A stretch of DNA of 62,886 bases from Candidatus Bathyarchaeota archaeon (GTDB lineage Archaea > Thermoproteota > Bathyarchaeia > TCS64 > PIYN01): the NCBI GenBank assembly GCA_003601775.1, contig PIYN01000016.1, positions 1 through 62,886 of the forward strand, read 5' to 3'. The notes under the pieces are model-generated. The model was not told the origin of the DNA and searched no databases. It was given only the letters and a program-made list of their open reading frames with translations. Each line of letters begins with the position of its first letter. Positions within the stretch are counted from its first letter, which is position 1. Below are positions 33,568 to 47,041 of this stretch, in pieces. The translations under genes were made by a program, and so were the position numbers.

Positions 33568-34284
33568 ATGGGGACCTCCTTGGAGAACTTCAGAGCCCTC
33601 TTCTTCACCCAGGGCGATTACGGGGAGAGGATCTTCAGTTACATCGCCAGTGAGGCTCCTCCTCACTGGTCCCTGAGGAAGATCCGCCTCCCTCGGGGCC
33701 TCTCGGATCTCGTTGAGGAGTCTGAAGGGGTTGTCAGGGGGCTTCTCCCTGATGAGGGGTTGAGATGCGACCTACTCGTCTTCCTGGGGGAGAGTCCCTC
33801 CTCCTTCTCCCTCCTACCTGAAGTCCTTGAGCGGGTTCAGGCGCGGAGCCTCATCGCCCCAGCCGATGACTATGCCTGGCTTCCGCTTGGGCTGGAGAGG
33901 CAACTTAGGTCCGAGTTGGGGCTTCCTGCCGTCTTCCCCAGGCCCTTCTGTTCCCTTACAGAGGTGGGGGAGCCCGTGATAGACGAGTTTGCGAGATTCT
34001 TCGGACGCCCCAGGCTTCGTGTTAGGATAAGGGAGGGAGTAGTCGAGGAGGTGGAGGTCCTCAGGGGAGCGCCCTGCGGCTCCACGCGATACATGGCTGA
34101 GAGGCTCGTGGGGACCCCAGCGGGCGAGGCTCCCAGAAGGGCGAGCCTCCTCGTCCAGACTTACCCCTGCCTCGCCTTGAGGAGGATCGAGAAGGTCATA
34201 AACGACTCCCTGATCCACATCTCAGGGCAGATCATCAAGAGGGCTGTGGAAGAGGCTCTTAGAAGGAGGTTAGGTTATCGTTAG
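33568..34284 (+). CDS. DUF166 family protein
   Basis: 238 residues. Matches the archaeal DUF166 family by VLFTQGDYG-like start ([17 protein letters not shown]), [20 protein letters not shown] near residue 125 and the conserved cysteines in [16 protein letters not shown] and LVQTYPCLA. The family was once mislabelled thymidylate synthase; its real role is unknown. The conserved Cys residues and GAPCG stretch suggest a redox or metal site. Likely leaderless from a shared TATA element. Convergent with herA, with a 15-nt 3' overlap. Confidence 0.8.
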
Positions 34285-35802
34285 CGGCTTCTGCTCCTCT
34301 CTGTCCATGGCTTGGGCCATCTCCATGAACCTCTTGAGGGGTGTCGTCGTCGCCGATGAGGGGTAGAGCTCGGGTATCACCTTGACCCATAGGGGGAAGC
34401 GACACTTCAGGGCCGTCCCCTTCACTATCGCCTCCCCTGGAGGGAGCTCTCCGAGGAGGTCGACAAAGTTCTCACCCACGATCTCCCCGAGCCTCCTCTT
34501 GTCCAGGTCCTCGAGGGCGTGGCAGACGATGTTGTTCGCACACTGGGTCACGACCGTCTTCTCCACCGTCGCCAGTCTCTGGGTCACGATCCAGAGGCCC
34601 ACGCCGTTCCTCCCTCCATTCGTCGCGATCTCCTTCACCACCGAGAGGAGCCTCACCCTACTCTCAGCCGAACCCACCTCGAAGAGTCCCCTCTGAGGGG
34701 CATAGTACATCGCCTCCTCCAGGAGGATGACGCATCCGAAGCCCTGGTCCTCCAAGGCCTCGGTGAAGATCCTCTTGAGGACCTGGGCGATGACGACATG
34801 CTTCTGTGACCAAGTATCCCTCCCCTGCGAGAGATCCATGATGACGATGCGATGCCTCCTCAGGAGCTCCACCGGGTCCAGCGCCTCCACATCATCATCA
34901 GGGATGAGGCGGGAGTAGGCCACGGCGTTGGCCACCTGCCTCTTATAGTCCTCCAGCTCCTCCCCCTTCTTCCTGAAGCCCAGGTCCTCCCCCTCGACGA
35001 ACTGTAGGACCCTTATCAGGTTCCTCTTCGTCAGGAGCTCCCCGGAGGACCTCAGCATCCTCAGTGCCCTCCTGAGGACCTTGGAGGTCCACCAGTTCCT
35101 CTGCCACCCAAACTCAGCGAGGAAGTCCTCATAGCCTATGTCCGAGGGCTTGAAGAACCTGATCCAGGGGACCCTCACCGCCTCCCCGGGCCCGAACCTC
35201 TCAAGGAGGCTCCCATACTCCCCGTCCTTGTCCACGATGAAGAAGCGGACGGGCGGCTCCAGGCTCGCGGCCCTGCAGACCATGGTGATCGCCGTCGTCG
35301 TCTTCCCCGTCCCCACAGAGCCACAGATGAGGCAGGACTGCCTGATGAGGTGATGGAGGTCGAGCTCCACCTCGAGGCCGCAGCTCAGGTCCGTCCCGAG
35401 GAGGATCCTCCACTCCCCCTCGGGCTTCGTGAACCTCGCGACGACCTCCCTCCCGGCCTTGTAGACCGGGGTGTTCGGTGGGAGCGGGTACCTCAGCGCC
35501 CTCAGGCGTCCGAGGTCGTCGAGCCACCCCCACTGATAGGCCTCGACGTGGATGGTGGAGTCCTCCCAGTCCGGGACGATCCTCCCCTCCTTCAGGAGGA
35601 ACTCCTCGTACTCCCTCACCCTCCTATGGGGGTAGACCCTGACCACTTGGTAGACCACGGGCCTCCTCCTCTTCGGGTGGAGGACGTAGATCAGGTCACC
35701 CTTCGCGACCTCCCTACCCTTCCTCAGCACCACCGTTATCTGATCATGGAGGTACTCCCCCGTGGTGCTGAAGGTGTGGCCGATCACCTCATCCCCATCC
35801 AT
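34270..35802 (-). CDS. herA: HerA-type DNA translocase/helicase
   Basis: 510 residues. N-terminal HAS-barrel (~1-120), then the RecA-like motor: Walker A CGSVGTGKTTTAITM near residue 162, FIVDKDGEYGSLL, Walker B CVILLEEAMYYAP near 360, and the sensor stretch GVGLWIVTQRLATVEK, then CANNIVCHALEDLDKRRLGE, characteristic of HerA. It forms hexamers that drive NurA in DNA-end resection. Its start lies inside the end of nurA (19-nt overlap). No mre11 or rad50 neighbours are present, unlike the four-gene archaeal cluster. The last 14 bp overlap the opposing DUF166 gene. Confidence 0.92.
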   Translation of the reverse strand: MDGDEVIGHTFSTTGEYLHDQITVVLRKGREVAKGDLIYVLHPKRRRPVVYQVVRVYPHRRVREYEEFLLKEGRIVPDWEDSTIHVEAYQWGWLDDLGRLRALRYPLPPNTPVYKAGREVVARFTKPEGEWRILLGTDLSCGLEVELDLHHLIRQSCLICGSVGTGKTTTAITMVCRAASLEPPVRFFIVDKDGEYGSLLERFGPGEAVRVPWIRFFKPSDIGYEDFLAEFGWQRNWWTSKVLRRALRMLRSSGELLTKRNLIRVLQFVEGEDLGFRKKGEELEDYKRQVANAVAYSRLIPDDDVEALDPVELLRRHRIVIMDLSQGRDTWSQKHVVIAQVLKRIFTEALEDQGFGCVILLEEAMYYAPQRGLFEVGSAESRVRLLSVVKEIATNGGRNGVGLWIVTQRLATVEKTVVTQCANNIVCHALEDLDKRRLGEIVGENFVDLLGELPPGEAIVKGTALKCRFPLWVKVIPELYPSSATTTPLKRFMEMAQAMDREEQKPLTIT

Positions 35803-36881
35803 CTTCCCTCACCCCAGACAGGGGCCACATAGGAGAGCTCCCCCGTCTCCCTCCCAACCCTCGAGAGGACCTCCAGGTAGACCTCATCTATGAACTCCTT
35901 CGAGATCCTCACCGACTCATCCGCCTTGATGACCGGGAGCGGGACCCCTTGGAGGTAGCTCGTCGCGTAGCAGTACTCAGCGATCTCCTCCACATATCCG
36001 AGGGAGAAGGCTGGGAGGTCGATCCTGATGGGCGGTATGGACCAGTCCCTGGAGAGGCGGGCGTAGAAGGAGTAGATGGGAAAACCTATCGCGTCCATGA
36101 AGGGCGAGGACCTGACCACCCTCCTGAGGGCTGACCTCGGCGAGAAGAGACCCGTCCTCTCCCCGGGCCGGAGCACCTGGAGGAGGATGAAGGAGTCAGG
36201 GAGGTTCGTCGCTTCCTGCAGCCCCAGGTGGTAGAGCAGGTACCTGGCGGAGGGCCTCTTCACGATCCCAGCGACCAGGACCTCCCTCTCCTGGCAGAGG
36301 TGGAGAAACCGGTTCACCCTATCCACCAGGGCCCTACGGTCAACGGGCCTCCCGGCGGCCCTCCACCAGTTGCTGAAGGCGAGGGGTCCATCTATCAGGA
36401 TCAGCTCCACATCGGGGTTCCTCTCCAGGAACTTTATCCCGGTCTCGTAGAGCTTCGCCTCCCTCCGTACGCTGAGGATGCTCTTGAACTTCAGGTTCGA
36501 GAGCCTGTAGGAGAACTTGATGGACTCAGGCTCCGTGAAGAAGCACCTCCCCTCAGGGAGGGAGTAGGCGAGGGCGCTTATCACGGCGTACCATCGGGAG
36601 GAGAGGGGGAGCCTCTGCCCCCCCGCGTCGATGCCCGTGACCCTTGTGAAGTGCTCCCTCCGGCTGATCTCCATGATCTCCGCCCCGGCACGGATCTTCT
36701 CGGCGATACCCGCCACGGCCTCGAGATCAGCGTAGACATCCTTAGTTATCTCCCCGAGGACCAGATTCCTTATGGCGAGGCAGAGGTCTGGATGGGTTGA
36801 GAGCCCGCCCCCTACTTCCCCAGCGCTCCCTGGGTCCAGCCTCGCCGAGAAACCCCGCTTCAGCGTCAACATCTCAACCAC
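35784..36881 (-). CDS. nurA: NurA-domain nuclease
   Basis: 365 residues. NurA motifs: acidic metal site VTGIDAGGQRLPL near residue 82, second acid LILIDGPLAFSNWW near 165, then GIVKRPSARYLLYHLG, and a late aspartate in DAIGFPIYSFYARLS followed by IRIDLPAF. NurA is a 5'-3' exonuclease and endonuclease that works with HerA on DNA ends. First gene of the nurA-herA operon. Upstream it faces a 199-bp AT-rich spacer and then the divergent winged-helix gene array. Confidence 0.88.
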   Translation of the reverse strand: MVEMLTLKRGFSARLDPGSAGEVGGGLSTHPDLCLAIRNLVLGEITKDVYADLEAVAGIAEKIRAGAEIMEISRREHFTRVTGIDAGGQRLPLSSRWYAVISALAYSLPEGRCFFTEPESIKFSYRLSNLKFKSILSVRREAKLYETGIKFLERNPDVELILIDGPLAFSNWWRAAGRPVDRRALVDRVNRFLHLCQEREVLVAGIVKRPSARYLLYHLGLQEATNLPDSFILLQVLRPGERTGLFSPRSALRRVVRSSPFMDAIGFPIYSFYARLSRDWSIPPIRIDLPAFSLGYVEEIAEYCYATSYLQGVPLPVIKADESVRISKEFIDEVYLEVLSRVGRETGELSYVAPVWGEGRWMGMR

Positions 36882-37047
36882 CAGAGAGGAGCACTATACA
36901 ACACATTATTTCTTGGATATATAAACCCTACGGTTCTCTGAGCATAATTTCTGATTATTATCCTTTTATTTATATATGTAGAAATTAACTTGCTCTAAAT
37001 TAATCCTGACAGGTCGAAAAGGAACTAAGGTCAAAAGGTAAAGTTAA

Positions 37048-37058
37048 TAAGTATATAG
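37048..37058 (+). promoter_or_regulatory. TATA box of the winged-helix gene array
   Basis: taagtatatag is centred 27-28 nt before ATG 37081, predicting leaderless transcription of the first gene. The rest of 36882-37047 is AT-rich and has no ORF; it must also hold the nurA promoter. Confidence 0.6.
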
Positions 37059-37080
37059 GTGAAGTAAAAAATGTATCAAA

Positions 37081-37335
37081 ATGGGCGAGGAGAGAACTCT
37101 GAAGGAGATGGTCTTCAGGACCTTTCTGCTACATCCCGGCTTCGGCCCGAGGGAGATGACGGATCACCTCCAGGTGAACTACAACTCCGTGAAGGCCATA
37201 TACTCGAAGCTCTGCGATGAGGGGCTGCTGAGGAGGGAGGCGCGGGGGACCTACTCCCCAAACATACCGGGCATCCTCCTCCACCTCATGGACCGCATAG
37301 AGGCGCTGGAGAAGAGGTTGGGAAAGGCGGGATGA
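37081..37335 (+). CDS. Small winged-helix protein 1 of 5
   Basis: 84 residues. A single winged helix: FGPREMTDHLQVNYNSVKA as the helix-turn-helix, IYSKLCDEGLLRREARGTY as recognition helix end and wing, then a C-terminal amphipathic helix IPGILLHLMDRIEALEKRL suited to dimerisation. No ligand domain, no cysteine pair. First gene of a five-gene operon of similar proteins. Likely a DNA-binding regulator; target unknown. Promoter predicted just upstream, leaderless ATG. Confidence 0.8.
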   Translation: MGEERTLKEMVFRTFLLHPGFGPREMTDHLQVNYNSVKAIYSKLCDEGLLRREARGTYSPNIPGILLHLMDRIEALEKRLGKAG

Positions 37336-37339
37336 TGAG

Positions 37340-37606
37340 ATGGAGGGTCTCTGGGACGAGGCTCTGAGGCGTCTATCGCCGGGTAAGAGCCTCTTCAAGG
37401 TCCTGGTATACCTATCCTTTAAGGGGAGGAGCCGCCCCGCGGAGATCGCGGGGGAGACGGGTCTCTCCCCTGGGACGGTACGCCCCGCGCTGAGGAACCT
37501 GCTGAACATGGGGTTAGTGAGGCAAGAGGAGGATGGTTCCTATATATCTAACATACACTTCACCGAGATCGTATCTGACATCTACCGTCGTCTCCCCAGG
37601 GAATAG
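37340..37606 (+). CDS. Small winged-helix protein 2 of 5
   Basis: 88 residues, ATG 4 nt after the preceding stop. Winged helix: SLFKVLVYLSFKGRSRPAEI, TGLSPGTVRPALRNLLNMGL, wing VRQEEDGSYISNI, then a helix FTEIVSDIYRRL. Its closest relative in the operon is gene 4, which shares the pattern FKVL.YL.FK, G.TVR..L..L...LV, DGY(V/I)SNI and I..IY...RRE. Predicted DNA-binding regulator. Confidence 0.78.
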   Translation: MEGLWDEALRRLSPGKSLFKVLVYLSFKGRSRPAEIAGETGLSPGTVRPALRNLLNMGLVRQEEDGSYISNIHFTEIVSDIYRRLPRE

Positions 37607-37622
37607 GATACCGTGGTCCCCC

Positions 37623-37895
37623 ATGAGCCAAGAGACGTCTGAGGCCCTCGAGGGGCTCCGGAGGGCGGAGACCCAGAGGAAGGTGTTATTGCTCCTGATC
37701 CGGGAGGAGAGGGAGATGAGCAACAGGGAGGTCGCTGAGGCGCTCAAGTTGAGCATGAACGCTGTCAACATCGCCCTCCACAACCTCCATACCAAGGGCC
37801 TCGTCGAGAGGGTCTCGAGGGGGGTCTACAGGTATAAGCTGGGACCGATCCTGGCGACCATCTTGAAGAGGTATTTAGAAGGAGGATCAAAATGA
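37623..37895 (+). CDS. Small winged-helix protein 3 of 5
   Basis: 90 residues from ATG 37623; the frame extends 30 codons upstream into the previous gene without sense. Winged helix: RKVLLLLIREEREMSNREVA, EALKLSMNAVNIALHNLHTKG, wing LVERVSRGVYRYKLG, then ILATILKRYLEG. It resembles gene 1 in its wing and C-terminal helix (RG.Y...LG/PGIL). No strong ribosome-binding site is visible upstream, so expression may rely on coupling. Confidence 0.72.
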   Translation: MSQETSEALEGLRRAETQRKVLLLLIREEREMSNREVAEALKLSMNAVNIALHNLHTKGLVERVSRGVYRYKLGPILATILKRYLEGGSK

Positions 37896-38185
37896 GTAAG
37901 AAAAGAGTATTAAAGGCCCTGGACTCCTTAGGGGTGAGGACCTCCGCCTTCAAGATCCTCTGCTATCTCACCTTCAAACAGGGGGAGCTGAAGCCCTCCG
38001 AGATCTCGGAGGGGCTGGGGATGAAGGCAGGGACGGTCAGGGCGAGGCTCAGCGAGCTCAAGGAGGCAAAGCTGGTGAGAACCCTACGCGACGGCTATGT
38101 CTCCAACATCCTTCCCTACGACATCCTGATGAGGATCTACGAGGAGATAAGGAGGGAGATGAAGGAGGAGAGGAAGAGTGGCTAA
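37892..38185 (+). CDS. Small winged-helix protein 4 of 5
   Basis: 97 residues; its ATG overlaps the stop of gene 3 in ATGA. Winged helix: SAFKILCYLTFKQGELKPSE, EGLGMKAGTVRARLSELKEAK, wing LVRTLRDGYVSNI, and a C-terminal charged helix ILMRIYEEIRREMKEERK. Paralogue of gene 2. Predicted DNA-binding regulator. Confidence 0.78.
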   Translation: MSKKRVLKALDSLGVRTSAFKILCYLTFKQGELKPSEISEGLGMKAGTVRARLSELKEAKLVRTLRDGYVSNILPYDILMRIYEEIRREMKEERKSG

Positions 38186-38498
38186 GGGAAATCTGGAAGA
38201 GCTCAAAGAGCGGATGGAGAACCTCCTCACACTCCGAAGGGCCCCAAGTCAATTCAACATCCTCATCCACCTCATCAGCACGGGGAAGCCTTTGACGATC
38301 AAGGAGATCTCCGAGGGGCTCTCGCTGACCTACAAGGCCGCGGAGAGGGCCGTCGCGAAGCTCCTTGAGAAGGGCCTCATACAGCGCCTCCCCTTCAAGG
38401 AGGGAGCCTACACCTGCGACTTCAGACAACTACTCCTATGTCTCCTGCTCGCCTATATGGAGATGAACACCCGGATCCAAAGGCAGGTTAAGCCTTAA
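38178..38498 (+). CDS. Small winged-helix protein 5 of 5
   Basis: 106 residues from GTG 38178, overlapping gene 4 by 8 nt. It has an added N-terminal helix (NLEELKERMENLLTL), then SQFNILIHLISTGKPLTIKE, EGLSLTYKAAERAVAKLLEKG, wing LIQRLPFKEGAYTC, and a hydrophobic C-terminal helix QLLLCLLLAYMEM that could support dimerisation or membrane contact. Last gene of the operon; convergent with two further winged-helix genes after ~90 bp. Confidence 0.76.
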   Translation: MAKGNLEELKERMENLLTLRRAPSQFNILIHLISTGKPLTIKEISEGLSLTYKAAERAVAKLLEKGLIQRLPFKEGAYTCDFRQLLLCLLLAYMEMNTRIQRQVKP

Positions 38499-38589: not shown

Positions 38590-39075
38590 TTAATCCTTGC
38601 TGGTTTTTCGGGCGAGCAGGCGTGGGAGGATCTCCTCCTCCACCCACTTGATCCCGCTGGTGGAGAGCTTATACTCTGGTGTCCTGGGGTTGGGCTTGAA
38701 GATGTACCCCCTCTTCCTCATCTCGTTCAGCCTGGCTGGGACGGTGACCTTCTTCCCGCTTGAGAGGAGTAGGTTTCGTAGCTTCCTTGAGGTACATTGG
38801 TTATCCTTTGAGCAGTAGAGGATGAGGGCGATGGCCTCGTAGTGTGTCAGCTTCTTCTTGGTCACTATGATGGGCCCCTCCCTCGTCATATCAACGATGC
38901 CCTGTAGGGCGTTTCTGGTATGCCCTGAGGTAAGGGGGGAGATGCTGGAGGTTAGTCTTGAGTAGAACTGGGGGTTCAGATCCTGGAGGAGTTGGAGGAC
39001 CTCCTCTGGCGTCTCCCCGCTGACCACGATCTCCCCGAAGGAGGTCTTGATGCTGACCTTTATTCCCTTCGTCAT
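38590..39075 (-). CDS. Two-domain protein: small N-terminal module plus winged helix (a)
   Basis: 161 residues. Residues ~5-32 form a beta-alpha module, VSIKTSFGEIVVSGETPEEV followed by LQLLQDL, shared in pattern with the preceding gene in this operon. A linker follows, and residues ~75-150 are a winged helix (LTHYEAIALILYCSKDNQCT, LNEMRKRGYIFKPNP). The ATG overlaps the stop of gene (b) by ATGA. Similar module-plus-wHTH proteins occur as multi-copy families in archaea; function unknown. Predicted regulator. Confidence 0.72.
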   Translation of the reverse strand: MTKGIKVSIKTSFGEIVVSGETPEEVLQLLQDLNPQFYSRLTSSISPLTSGHTRNALQGIVDMTREGPIIVTKKKLTHYEAIALILYCSKDNQCTSRKLRNLLLSSGKKVTVPARLNEMRKRGYIFKPNPRTPEYKLSTSGIKWVEEEILPRLLARKTSKD

Positions 39076-39515
39076 CGCTCAACCTCCGTCTCTACCAGGG
39101 TATAGAGGTACTTGCCGTCCTCACCCTTCCATCTCCTTAACTTACCCTTCTTCACGAGCCAGTTCAAGGTCCCGGAGAGGGTGGAACTCGGGTAATGGAT
39201 GGCGTTCGCCTCCATCCCCTCCCTCAACTCGGAGAGGGTCCGTGGGGTCTTCCCCCACTCGGTCTGGAGGAGGCTGATGATGGCCTCGCTGCACTTCTTC
39301 GTCCTTGGGATCGTGGGGTACCCGGCCTTTGAGGGGGTCTCAGCATCCATGGCCTCCTCCCTCCTCTGTATGGACCCCTCCCTGAAGGCCCTTGATACCT
39401 TGCTGATGATCTCCTCAAGGTCTTCGAGGGCTGCCATGACGTCTTCGCGAGTCCCTCCGAACTCGACCTCTTGGTCGCCGATCCTGATGCGAAGGGTGAA
39501 CCGGGAGTTCTCCAT
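39072..39515 (-). CDS. Two-domain protein: small N-terminal module plus winged helix (b)
   Basis: 147 residues from ATG 39515. N-terminal module FTLRIRIGDQEVEFGGTREDV with following helix AALEDLEEII, a variable linker (~45-75), and a C-terminal winged helix (CSEAIISLLQTEWGKTPRTL, SSTLSGTLNWLVKKGKLRR, wing WKGEDGKYLYTL). Paralogue in layout of gene (a), to which it is coupled. A TATA-like gtttaatc near 39540 predicts a leaderless ATG. Confidence 0.74.
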   Translation of the reverse strand: MENSRFTLRIRIGDQEVEFGGTREDVMAALEDLEEIISKVSRAFREGSIQRREEAMDAETPSKAGYPTIPRTKKCSEAIISLLQTEWGKTPRTLSELREGMEANAIHYPSSTLSGTLNWLVKKGKLRRWKGEDGKYLYTLVETEVER

Positions 39516-39594
39516 CAAGACTCACATCAAGCTCGAGATTAAACAGGTGACTGTACTGAATTCCTCCCTTTCGATACTTAAATCTAATGTAACT

Positions 39595-44725: not shown

Positions 44726-47041
44726 CTATCTCCGTCTAAGTGTGAGGAATAGCGCGACTGTAGCGACGAGTATAAGAGAGAATATGGTTATCCACTTCCA
44801 GGGAGAAGCGGGTGGTGTCACTGGTTGAACCGGACTCGTTGTACCGCTCACTTGATTAGAGTCGGCTGATTCCCCGCCCTTATCGACGACTCTTATGGTG
44901 AAGTAGTACGTGGTCTCGGGTAATAGCCCAGTTACCTCATAAGAGGTCACGGAGCTGTTAGTTATAGTGCAGATCTTTGTTCCGAGGGTCCCCCTCGAGA
45001 TTGATTGATAGATCTCGTAGGCGGCGAAGTCTAAGTCGTAGTTTCTCGTCCAGATCAGCTTCATAGAGTCATGAGTGATATTAACGGGGTTATAAAGCGA
45101 GACCGGGGTTGGTGGTAGGTTTATAGTATAGGTAACGGATCTTACGGTCTCATTATTCCCAGCATTATCCACGCTATAATAACTTATGGTATAGTTTCCC
45201 TCCGCTGTGAGATTAAAGGGTTCCATAAATCTCATCCATTCATCGCCATCTATCTTATAAAAGGTCTTATTTACCCCAAAGCCCACATCCACAGCAGTTA
45301 ACCGTACTGAAATCGGTTCAGAGTAAACTCCCCCCTCAGGACTGATCGTGGTCTTAGGTGGAGTGAAGTCCATCGTACTCACATAGTATTCAAACATCTT
45401 CATTAAGGGATAATAGTCTATTGGATCCTTATACTCAGAATAGGGCGTGTTACCGATCCCATCCCCATCCAAATCCTCACCTTCATAGTCACTCCAGTAG
45501 TTGCCCAGATAGTTTCTATAGAGAGTACCATTAAACACATACTTCATCGGTACAAGAGAATGCCAGATGGTTGTTGAAGAGTCGTAATTGAAACTTTCTT
45601 CATTATCTATGAAGTTATTAAGAAAAATGACATTATTGTCTGAAGATCTAAGGTCAATACCCACGAAATTGCCTGATACATTGTTAAAATAGATCATATT
45701 ATCATTGCTGGAGGAGTTTAAGCGAATGCCAACAACTATTGTTGATAGAGTATTATTAGCGATTGTGTTATTGGACGAGGAATGAAGGTTGACACCATAG
45801 TAGCTATTAACCACGGTATTTCCGATGATCATGTTATTTCTTGAATTTCTCAGGTAAACGGCATGATAGTTATCTGGTGCATAAACGTTTTCTATCCTGC
45901 AGTTATTGGAATAAGCAAGTAATACTCCCTGTCCATTACGTCTTATTGTCAGATCTTTCACAATTACATCACTTGAATTTATAATTCCAATATATCCTGC
46001 ATCCTTTGGTATATACAAACTATGTTTATTTATTAAATAATAAACGGGGTTACCTTCCACGAGATTACTCATATCTATGTTGTGTTCGAAATGGGAGAGT
46101 TCATTACCGTAAACTTGGAAGTTAAGATAATTCATAGACATAATATTTTCCTTTAATGTACAATTAATTGAGTACAATAGGTAGATGCCACAGATATTAT
46201 TTGTTGTATTGACGTTTTCTATCCTACAGTTTTTAGAGTAAGCCACTAAAACGCCATGTCTATTTTTCATCAGTATTAAATCCCTTACGTTTATGTTAGT
46301 TGAGTTCACGATCCCCACATAACCCGCGTCACTCGGTATCTCCCTATTCTTCTCGCTTACTAAATAGTAAATCGATTTTCCATCTACCTTATTGCTTGAA
46401 TCTATCTTGTGCAAGAAATGACAGAATCTTGAACCCTGTACGTTGAAATTATAGTCATTTTCAAAGATTACGTTGTTTAACATCTTAATATTTTCTGACT
46501 TATATATATAGACTCCAAAGTAATTTTTTGATACTTTGTTACTAACTATTGTAACATTATTTGTCTCCTCTATCAATATGCCACAGTAACTATTATTTGA
46601 GACTATATTATCTGTTATTATGCCATTTGTTGCAGTGTCCAACTTAATACCGTAGAAATGGTTTGAGATGATGTTATCCTTTATGACAAAGTTCTTGGGA
46701 TAAATCAGGATTCCCGAGGTCGTATTGCCGTTTATAGTAAATCCCTGTATGGTCACATCACTCCCTGTAATGAAGAAATCATGTACGATACAGTTTTTTG
46801 GACCATTCTCTGACCTGATCGTTAGACTCTTTCCTACTGTGACGCTCTCAGGGTAGACTCCGTCCTTAACGATGATCGTGTCGCCGGAATTTGCATGGTC
46901 CACGGCCTCCTGAATTGTTGGGTAGTCCACGGGCACTATGATCGCCCTCGGGCTCGAATCTACGGGATACGAACTATAAAATAGGCTATAGATCAACAAT
47001 ATAATGAGGGAAGAGTTGAGGAGAAGAGGTGGTCTTTTCAT
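44726..47041 (-). CDS. NosD-like right-handed beta-helix surface protein with Fn3 domain and C-terminal anchor
   Basis: 771 residues. Signal peptide (hydrophobic ~10-25, cleavage near Ser30), then DYPTIQEAVDHANSGDTIIV, the usual start of NosD/pectate-lyase-fold parallel beta-helices. Many N-rich coils follow (NN.I..N.., GI.L). Two tandem ~108-residue units (about 198-306 and 307-413) share H.ID.SN.V.G....YYL, DAGY.GI.NS and YS.NCRIENV. Near 500 there is a dockerin-like DGDGIGNTPY segment, then a beta-sandwich (~570-640), an Fn3 domain (~645-740), and a final membrane helix WITIFSLILVATVALFL with RRR tail. Many N-glycosylation sequons. GC content is visibly far below the neighbours, suggesting transfer. 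Probable S-layer-associated or adhesion protein. Confidence 0.88.
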   Translation of the reverse strand: MKRPPLLLNSSLIILLIYSLFYSSYPVDSSPRAIIVPVDYPTIQEAVDHANSGDTIIVKDGVYPESVTVGKSLTIRSENGPKNCIVHDFFITGSDVTIQGFTINGNTTSGILIYPKNFVIKDNIISNHFYGIKLDTATNGIITDNIVSNNSYCGILIEETNNVTIVSNKVSKNYFGVYIYKSENIKMLNNVIFENDYNFNVQGSRFCHFLHKIDSSNKVDGKSIYYLVSEKNREIPSDAGYVGIVNSTNINVRDLILMKNRHGVLVAYSKNCRIENVNTTNNICGIYLLYSINCTLKENIMSMNYLNFQVYGNELSHFEHNIDMSNLVEGNPVYYLINKHSLYIPKDAGYIGIINSSDVIVKDLTIRRNGQGVLLAYSNNCRIENVYAPDNYHAVYLRNSRNNMIIGNTVVNSYYGVNLHSSSNNTIANNTLSTIVVGIRLNSSSNDNMIYFNNVSGNFVGIDLRSSDNNVIFLNNFIDNEESFNYDSSTTIWHSLVPMKYVFNGTLYRNYLGNYWSDYEGEDLDGDGIGNTPYSEYKDPIDYYPLMKMFEYYVSTMDFTPPKTTISPEGGVYSEPISVRLTAVDVGFGVNKTFYKIDGDEWMRFMEPFNLTAEGNYTISYYSVDNAGNNETVRSVTYTINLPPTPVSLYNPVNITHDSMKLIWTRNYDLDFAAYEIYQSISRGTLGTKICTITNSSVTSYEVTGLLPETTYYFTIRVVDKGGESADSNQVSGTTSPVQPVTPPASPWKWITIFSLILVATVALFLTLRRR

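Follow-up and report, generated by a model that had tools for sequence, protein, structure and literature searches.

The five-gene array

The window, the whole 62,886 nt stretch of DNA analysed here, comes from a 1.53 Mb genome assembly of the class Bathyarchaeia. It includes five consecutive forward-strand frames of 84–106 codons, here named g1 to g5 and separated by +4, +16, −4 and −8 nt (Table 1), with the positions, sizes and spacings given in an earlier note on this DNA. The flanks of the array include the housekeeping genes gatE and an EF-2-like GTPase. Further along the window, the GC content falls to 0.45 between 45000 and 48000, against ~0.60 around it, where there is a 771-aa frame (44726–47041) with a signal-peptide-like start.

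Table 1. Features of the array locus
Feature	Position	Strand	Description
HerA2	34270–35802	-	Second HerA-family ATPase; Walker A GSVGTGKT
NurA2	35784–36881	-	Second NurA-family nuclease; divergent from array; conserved D85, D164
nurA2 TATA-like element	36915–36928	-	GGGTTTATATATCC on - strand; conserved; putative function, from spacer alignment
56-bp bipartite inverted repeat	36940–36995		Proposed operator; arms GAGCATAATTTC (36940–36951) and, inverted, GAAATTAACTTGCTC (36981–36995)
Centre of 56-bp site	36964–36977		AT-rich, TATA-like; TTTTATTTATATAT
g1 BRE/TATA-like element	37031–37052	+	TCAAAAGGTAAAGTTAATAAGT; ~29 nt before ATG; conserved; putative function, from spacer alignment
g1	37081–37335	+	84-aa wHTH; paralogue farthest from the others; near-invariant recognition segment YNSVK; orthogroup n=28
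g2	37340–37606	+	88-aa wHTH; sister g4; invariant VRP.LR
g3	37623–37895	+	90-aa wHTH; sister g5; invariant NA.NI.L; best-conserved member (75% mean column identity)
g4	37892–38185	+	97-aa wHTH; long C-terminal helix; invariant VRARL
g5	38178–38498	+	106-aa wHTH; GTG start; invariant APSQ, T.K..ER and one Cys (C80)
c161	38590–39075	-	Convergent neighbour; conserved N-terminal region, wHTH-like C-terminus; relatives tandem upstream of NurA in other orders
c148	39072–39518	-	Distant c161 relative; in other orders, relative often divergent from NurA–HerA

The description of the proteins as lone winged helices was borne out, and the C-terminal helix was seen in the models of g3 and g4. g2 to g5 score above the Pfam cut-offs for winged helix-turn-helix (wHTH) models (HTH_IclR, HTH_24, TrmB, MarR_2 and HTH_5), and AlphaFold2 models built from natural alignments gave a wHTH fold for g3 (pLDDT 92, C-terminal helix 73–87) and g4 (pLDDT 94, C-terminal helix 75–96). 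Taken alone, g1 is weak in Pfam (AbiEi_4, E 0.16), and it joins the wHTH superfamily only via profiles of its paralogues, which recovered it. When the g3 and g4 models were compared using Foldseek, the neighbours were wHTHs of several kinds (AF2008, MepR, ArsR-type, TFE and ST1889) and pointed to no specific family. g3 also matched Z-alpha domains, but the resemblance looks like that of wHTHs in general, and this assignment was rejected. The five proteins are mostly basic (median pI 7.9–9.3, median net charge +1 to +3), and no ligand-binding domain was found in any of them. The cysteine of g5 is invariant among 25 aligned sequences and could be a redox sensor; thiol-based single-wHTH regulators are known in archaea (PMC9426492).

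A second HerA–NurA pair

According to the earlier note, the operon contains no gene for an effector or enzyme. This is true of the operon itself, but a second HerA–NurA pair, which in every intact genome diverges from the same spacer as the array, had been overlooked. Both proteins contain their family domain above the Pfam cut-off together with the catalytic motifs, and Asp85 and Asp164 of NurA2 sit in IDAG and IDG motifs.

A canonical operon on another contig of the same genome encodes NurA (441 aa), HerA (530 aa), an Mre11-like metallophosphatase and a Rad50-like ATPase, the textbook arrangement of NurA, HerA, Mre11 and Rad50 in one operon (PMC7690668). At both loci, the herA and nurA family genes are in tandem and overlap. 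However, HerA2 shares 23% identity with HerA1 over ~370 aa, NurA2 and NurA1 align by profiles only, and the window pair has no adjoining mre11 or rad50 and is linked to the wHTH array instead. A defence island or HerA anti-phage system was considered and rejected, as PADLOC recognised only HerA, the wHTH matches being at domain level, and the locus is inherited vertically across the order.

Conservation of the array within one order

With g4 as the query, 30 of the 32 same-order genomes (its own genome counted) yielded relatives, whereas none of 29 genomes from different orders of the class did so. Both same-order genomes that lack the array are incomplete (64% and 58%). Thirty genomes yielded the block comprising herA–nurA, g1–g5 and c161–c148–gatE, less any genes cut off where contigs end; in G005, gatE lies ~3.5 kb further away. 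nurA is present at all but two of the 30 array loci, and those two are truncated. The complete g1–g5 set, always in the same order, is present in 26 of these genomes; the set is broken by a run of N in G013 and by contig ends in G022, G024 and G027. The array spans 10 genera and three families, occupies the same chromosomal place throughout, and has diverged in a tree-like manner. In four genomes of one genus (genus g6; L035, L037, L041 and L042), a GNAT-like acetyltransferase gene on the opposite strand lies between g4 and g5, and g5 is therefore separable.

In a tree of 142 proteins and 94 columns, in which the deep forks are uncertain, each array position formed its own clade, with four label changes where the minimum possible is four. 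Sister groups were formed by g2 and g4 (99/77) and by g3 and g5 (92/76), with g1 apart. The claim that g2 and g4 are clear paralogues thus stands, and is further supported by comparison of their profiles (hhalign E 2e-22), while the proposed similarity of g1 to g3 does not, as the group nearest to g3 is g5 and g1 is the most distant of the five. Median pN/pS values of 0.11–0.17 across all five genes indicate purifying selection on each, and the alignment of each orthogroup revealed its own near-invariant recognition-helix residues. The earlier note would have been undermined by an absence of synteny in relatives or by frames that are not translated; instead, the array is fixed throughout the order and selection has acted on every gene. 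The order and frames conserved in 30 genomes, together with these pN/pS medians, go far beyond what chance would give. From the conserved order, the pN/pS values, the separate clades and the distinct recognition residues, we conclude at the level of sequence that these are five distinct, translated, non-redundant proteins that have been retained together.

Profile searches of 200 class genomes with g3 and of 250 phylum genomes with g4 returned no orthologues outside the order. The best out-of-order matches were solo minimal wHTHs of 62–71 aa in other Thermoproteota families, and the rest were generic wHTHs. These solo proteins (L162–L168, e.g. L162:6715-6915, minus strand) contain the motif NYNTVRARLHDLRKEGL, which resembles the recognition region of g4. 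Separately, families f1 and f3 have an extra, dispersed g3-like wHTH gene (98–107 aa) located away from the array (L169:1689-1985 in G000, contig C2; L170:1982-2305 in G006).

A conserved site in the shared spacer

The divergent spacer between nurA2 and g1 (36882–37080) is shared by the two transcription units. Alignment of this spacer from 27 genomes revealed a TATA-like box for either direction of transcription, with a 56-bp site between the two boxes. The rest of the spacer is poorly conserved, and the stretch from the right arm to the g1 box is unconserved. The distance of the g1 box from the ATG is consistent with a leaderless mRNA. The consensus of the site is GAGCRTAATTTC–N29–GAAATTAnnnYGCTC, with constant geometry and TTTTATWTATA in the centre.

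When the 32 genomes of the order were scanned with the fixed 56-bp pattern, allowing no variable gap and at most two mismatches, the site was found in 28, with 0–2 mismatches and always within the nurA–g1 spacer. There was one additional two-mismatch match, in G009, and reversed-pattern controls gave none. The four genomes without a match (G013, G021, G025 and G027) lack the spacer, or have it cut or lying behind an N gap. G000 contains two copies of the half-site GAGCNNAATTTC. A relaxed scan of loci from other orders found nothing beyond one poor, chance-like match, and no known RNA element was detected in the region using Rfam. By its distribution, the 56-bp site is operator-like and locus-specific, and not a motif spread over the genome. 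Neither arm is a palindrome in itself, and the two are asymmetric, one having 3 bp inserted relative to the other; this would suit heteromeric binders better than a single homodimer. As the site is upstream of both TATA-like boxes, activation would suit it as well as repression.

wHTH genes beside NurA–HerA in other orders

The c161 and c148 proteins have a similar N-terminal region (IKT.FGEI.VSGE..EEVLEAL and RIGD.EVE.GG..EEVL..L) followed by a wHTH-like C-terminus, and neither reached the cut-off of any Pfam model. Relatives of c148 (E 1e-6 or better) were found in 106 of 201 class genomes. A second c148 match of nearly full strength lies on a separate contig in G009 (G009:C4:3444-3875; L132). 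Among 20 NurA loci from other orders, a non-random set picked from Pfam NurA matches, a c161- or c148-family gene adjoins nurA in 14. A c148-like gene is divergent from nurA in G103, G168, G131, G155, G135, G125, G137, G154 and G123, two to four c161-like genes are co-directional upstream of nurA in G068, G052, G032, G084 and G048, and in G046 (L126) the order is c161-c161-c161-c148-nurA-herA. In G137 the NurA–HerA pair is followed by Mre11/Rad50-like frames, and the linkage to wHTH genes therefore extends beyond Mre11-free pairs.

Several of the divergent nurA/c148-type spacers have inverted TTGCGCAT-type arms in common. The inverted repeat TTGCGCAT ... ATGCGCAA at L142:6190-6230 is perfect over 26 bp and differs from the 56-bp site of the order. 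Along with this type of repeat, a block, TTGGTGAA..TTG.TGATTGAACAA, is shared by the regions upstream of nurA in L142, L137, L138, L141, L143, L144 and L154.

Like the array, the c161/c148-type genes of other orders are linked to NurA–HerA, include tandem wHTH genes and in some cases have a palindromic divergent promoter. They differ from g1 to g5 in their length (~130–190 aa), their extra N-terminal region and their number (1–4 genes), and homology is weak. Using hhalign, the c161 wHTH matched g4 with E 3e-5 over 41 columns and g3 with E 0.006. As this similarity is weak, common descent of g1–g5 and the c161 wHTH is unproven, and that g1 to g5 are truncated c161 paralogues is no more than a possibility.

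Possible roles of the array

The best-supported reading, for which we judge the chances to be about even, is that the array is a self-regulated, heteromeric set of wHTH regulators that controls itself and NurA2–HerA2 via the one divergent promoter. The co-inherited set would have arisen as genes were duplicated serially, at the latest in the ancestor of one Bathyarchaeia order, with g2/g4 and g3/g5 as sister pairs. g1 to g5 are probably transcribed as one polycistronic mRNA, and the proteins probably pair via their terminal helices to form hetero-oligomers, for which the two-armed 56-bp site in the array's divergent promoter would be the probable target. The bound site would set the levels of g1–g5 and of HerA2–NurA2, with autorepression the most likely sign. 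The controlled pair would be a helicase-nuclease without Mre11/Rad50 linkage. The combinatorial heterodimers or layered switch suggested in the earlier note are still plausible, given non-redundant paralogues with different recognition helices and a two-armed site, though the heteromers themselves are something we infer.

wHTHs of the fold class seen here (MarR-, ArsR- and AF2008-like) commonly autoregulate divergent genes. A local switch is supported by order-wide synteny combined with a locus-specific site of fixed geometry, and by the wHTH genes that flank NurA–HerA elsewhere together with the palindrome in L142. The presence of the canonical NurA–HerA–Mre11–Rad50 set on a separate contig also favours a switch that acts on the second pair. 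Against it, five proteins seem a large number to serve one promoter, g5 is split from g1–g4 in one genus, a dedicated local regulator would not usually be conserved this strongly, and no ligand-binding domain was detected. A factor other than g1 to g5 could also bind the 56-bp site.

In the main rival reading, which is possible though on balance unlikely, the array proteins would not be transcription regulators but would belong, in fixed stoichiometry, to a larger HerA2–NurA2 machine, as subunits that bind DNA or act as a scaffold and recruit the machine to DNA ends or particular DNA structures. The order-wide linkage to HerA2–NurA2 fits this, as do the fixed gene order and overlapping genes, which suggest stoichiometry. 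For the canonical pair, a recruiting role belongs to Mre11–Rad50 (PMC7690668), which does not adjoin the window pair. The two to four c161-type genes co-directional upstream of nurA-herA in other orders (G032, G046, G048, G052, G068 and G084) also fit a complex better than a divergent repressor. However, g1 to g5 are only weakly related to the c161 wHTH, the array is in the transcription unit opposite to nurA2-herA2, and the conserved cis-site argues for a role at the promoter.

In an improbable further reading, the five wHTHs would assemble as one hetero-oligomer at a unique site on the chromosome and guide HerA2–NurA2 to act there. Such a system would serve site-specific DNA processing or chromosome maintenance instead of plain regulation. 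If so, the 56-bp site, with its inverted arms, AT-rich core and approximately one copy per genome, would be the chromosomal target of an FtsK-superfamily translocase and its nuclease. The position of the locus relative to a replication origin or terminus was also considered: in G018, the sole strong Orc1/Cdc6 match is at 668 kb and the array at ~756 kb, and the sampled GC skew was too noisy for placement.

We consider it very unlikely that the array encodes small nucleoid-associated chromatin proteins acting in place of, or in addition to, Alba and histones. Five tiny, mostly basic variants with DNA-binding folds could make up a mixed coat, and TrmBL2 (PDB 5bpd), an archaeal wHTH chromatin protein, is among the distant fold matches. 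However, the net charge is modest, the array is tied to one locus and one cis-site, and the same genome has three Alba and three histone-fold matches, which also disfavour the earlier suggestion that the array replaces a longer multi-wHTH chromatin protein. That the array derives from an integrated virus or plasmid, as a leftover or a regulatory cassette, is scarcely credible: archaeal viruses commonly encode lone wHTHs of this size and the distribution is lineage-restricted, but the array has kept its place among housekeeping neighbours while diverging in a tree-like manner across 30 genomes, and no viral hallmark gene was seen near it.

A switch of the kind proposed would join two open questions: how HerA–NurA is controlled in archaea, and why sets of minimal wHTH paralogues are retained by some of them. 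The comparative data indicate that wHTH genes accompany NurA–HerA pairs in many Bathyarchaeia. The array, its single cis-site and HerA2–NurA2 are together small enough for reconstitution in vitro, and both heteromer formation and promoter control are testable.

Comparison with known systems

In the open-access full text searched, where absence is no proof, we found no description of HerA/NurA with a tandem wHTH array, and as far as we could establish the proposed switch is new to the literature. The proteins matched the MarR, ArsR, TrmB and IclR families at domain level only, and NCBIfam equivalog and subfamily cut-offs were not reached. Lrs14/Sta1 models matched g3 and g5 with E values of 2e-6 to 3e-8, but the scores fall far short of the model cut-offs, g3 reaching 33.8 bits against the NCBIfam cut-off of 90. 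The wHTHs of g2 and g4 resemble the C-terminal domain of Csa3/CasR (E 1.6e-6 and 5.6e-5), but they lack the CARF domain and these matches are also below the family cut-off.

To our knowledge, the single-domain archaeal wHTH regulators are encoded by single genes. Like g1 to g5, these regulators (the TrmB-type of PMC9426492, Lrs14/Sta1, the MarR-type BldR and AF2008, 1sfx) consist of one winged helix with flanking helices in ~85–140 aa. The array differs from them in that five paralogues, each with its own orthologues, are held together in one fixed order.
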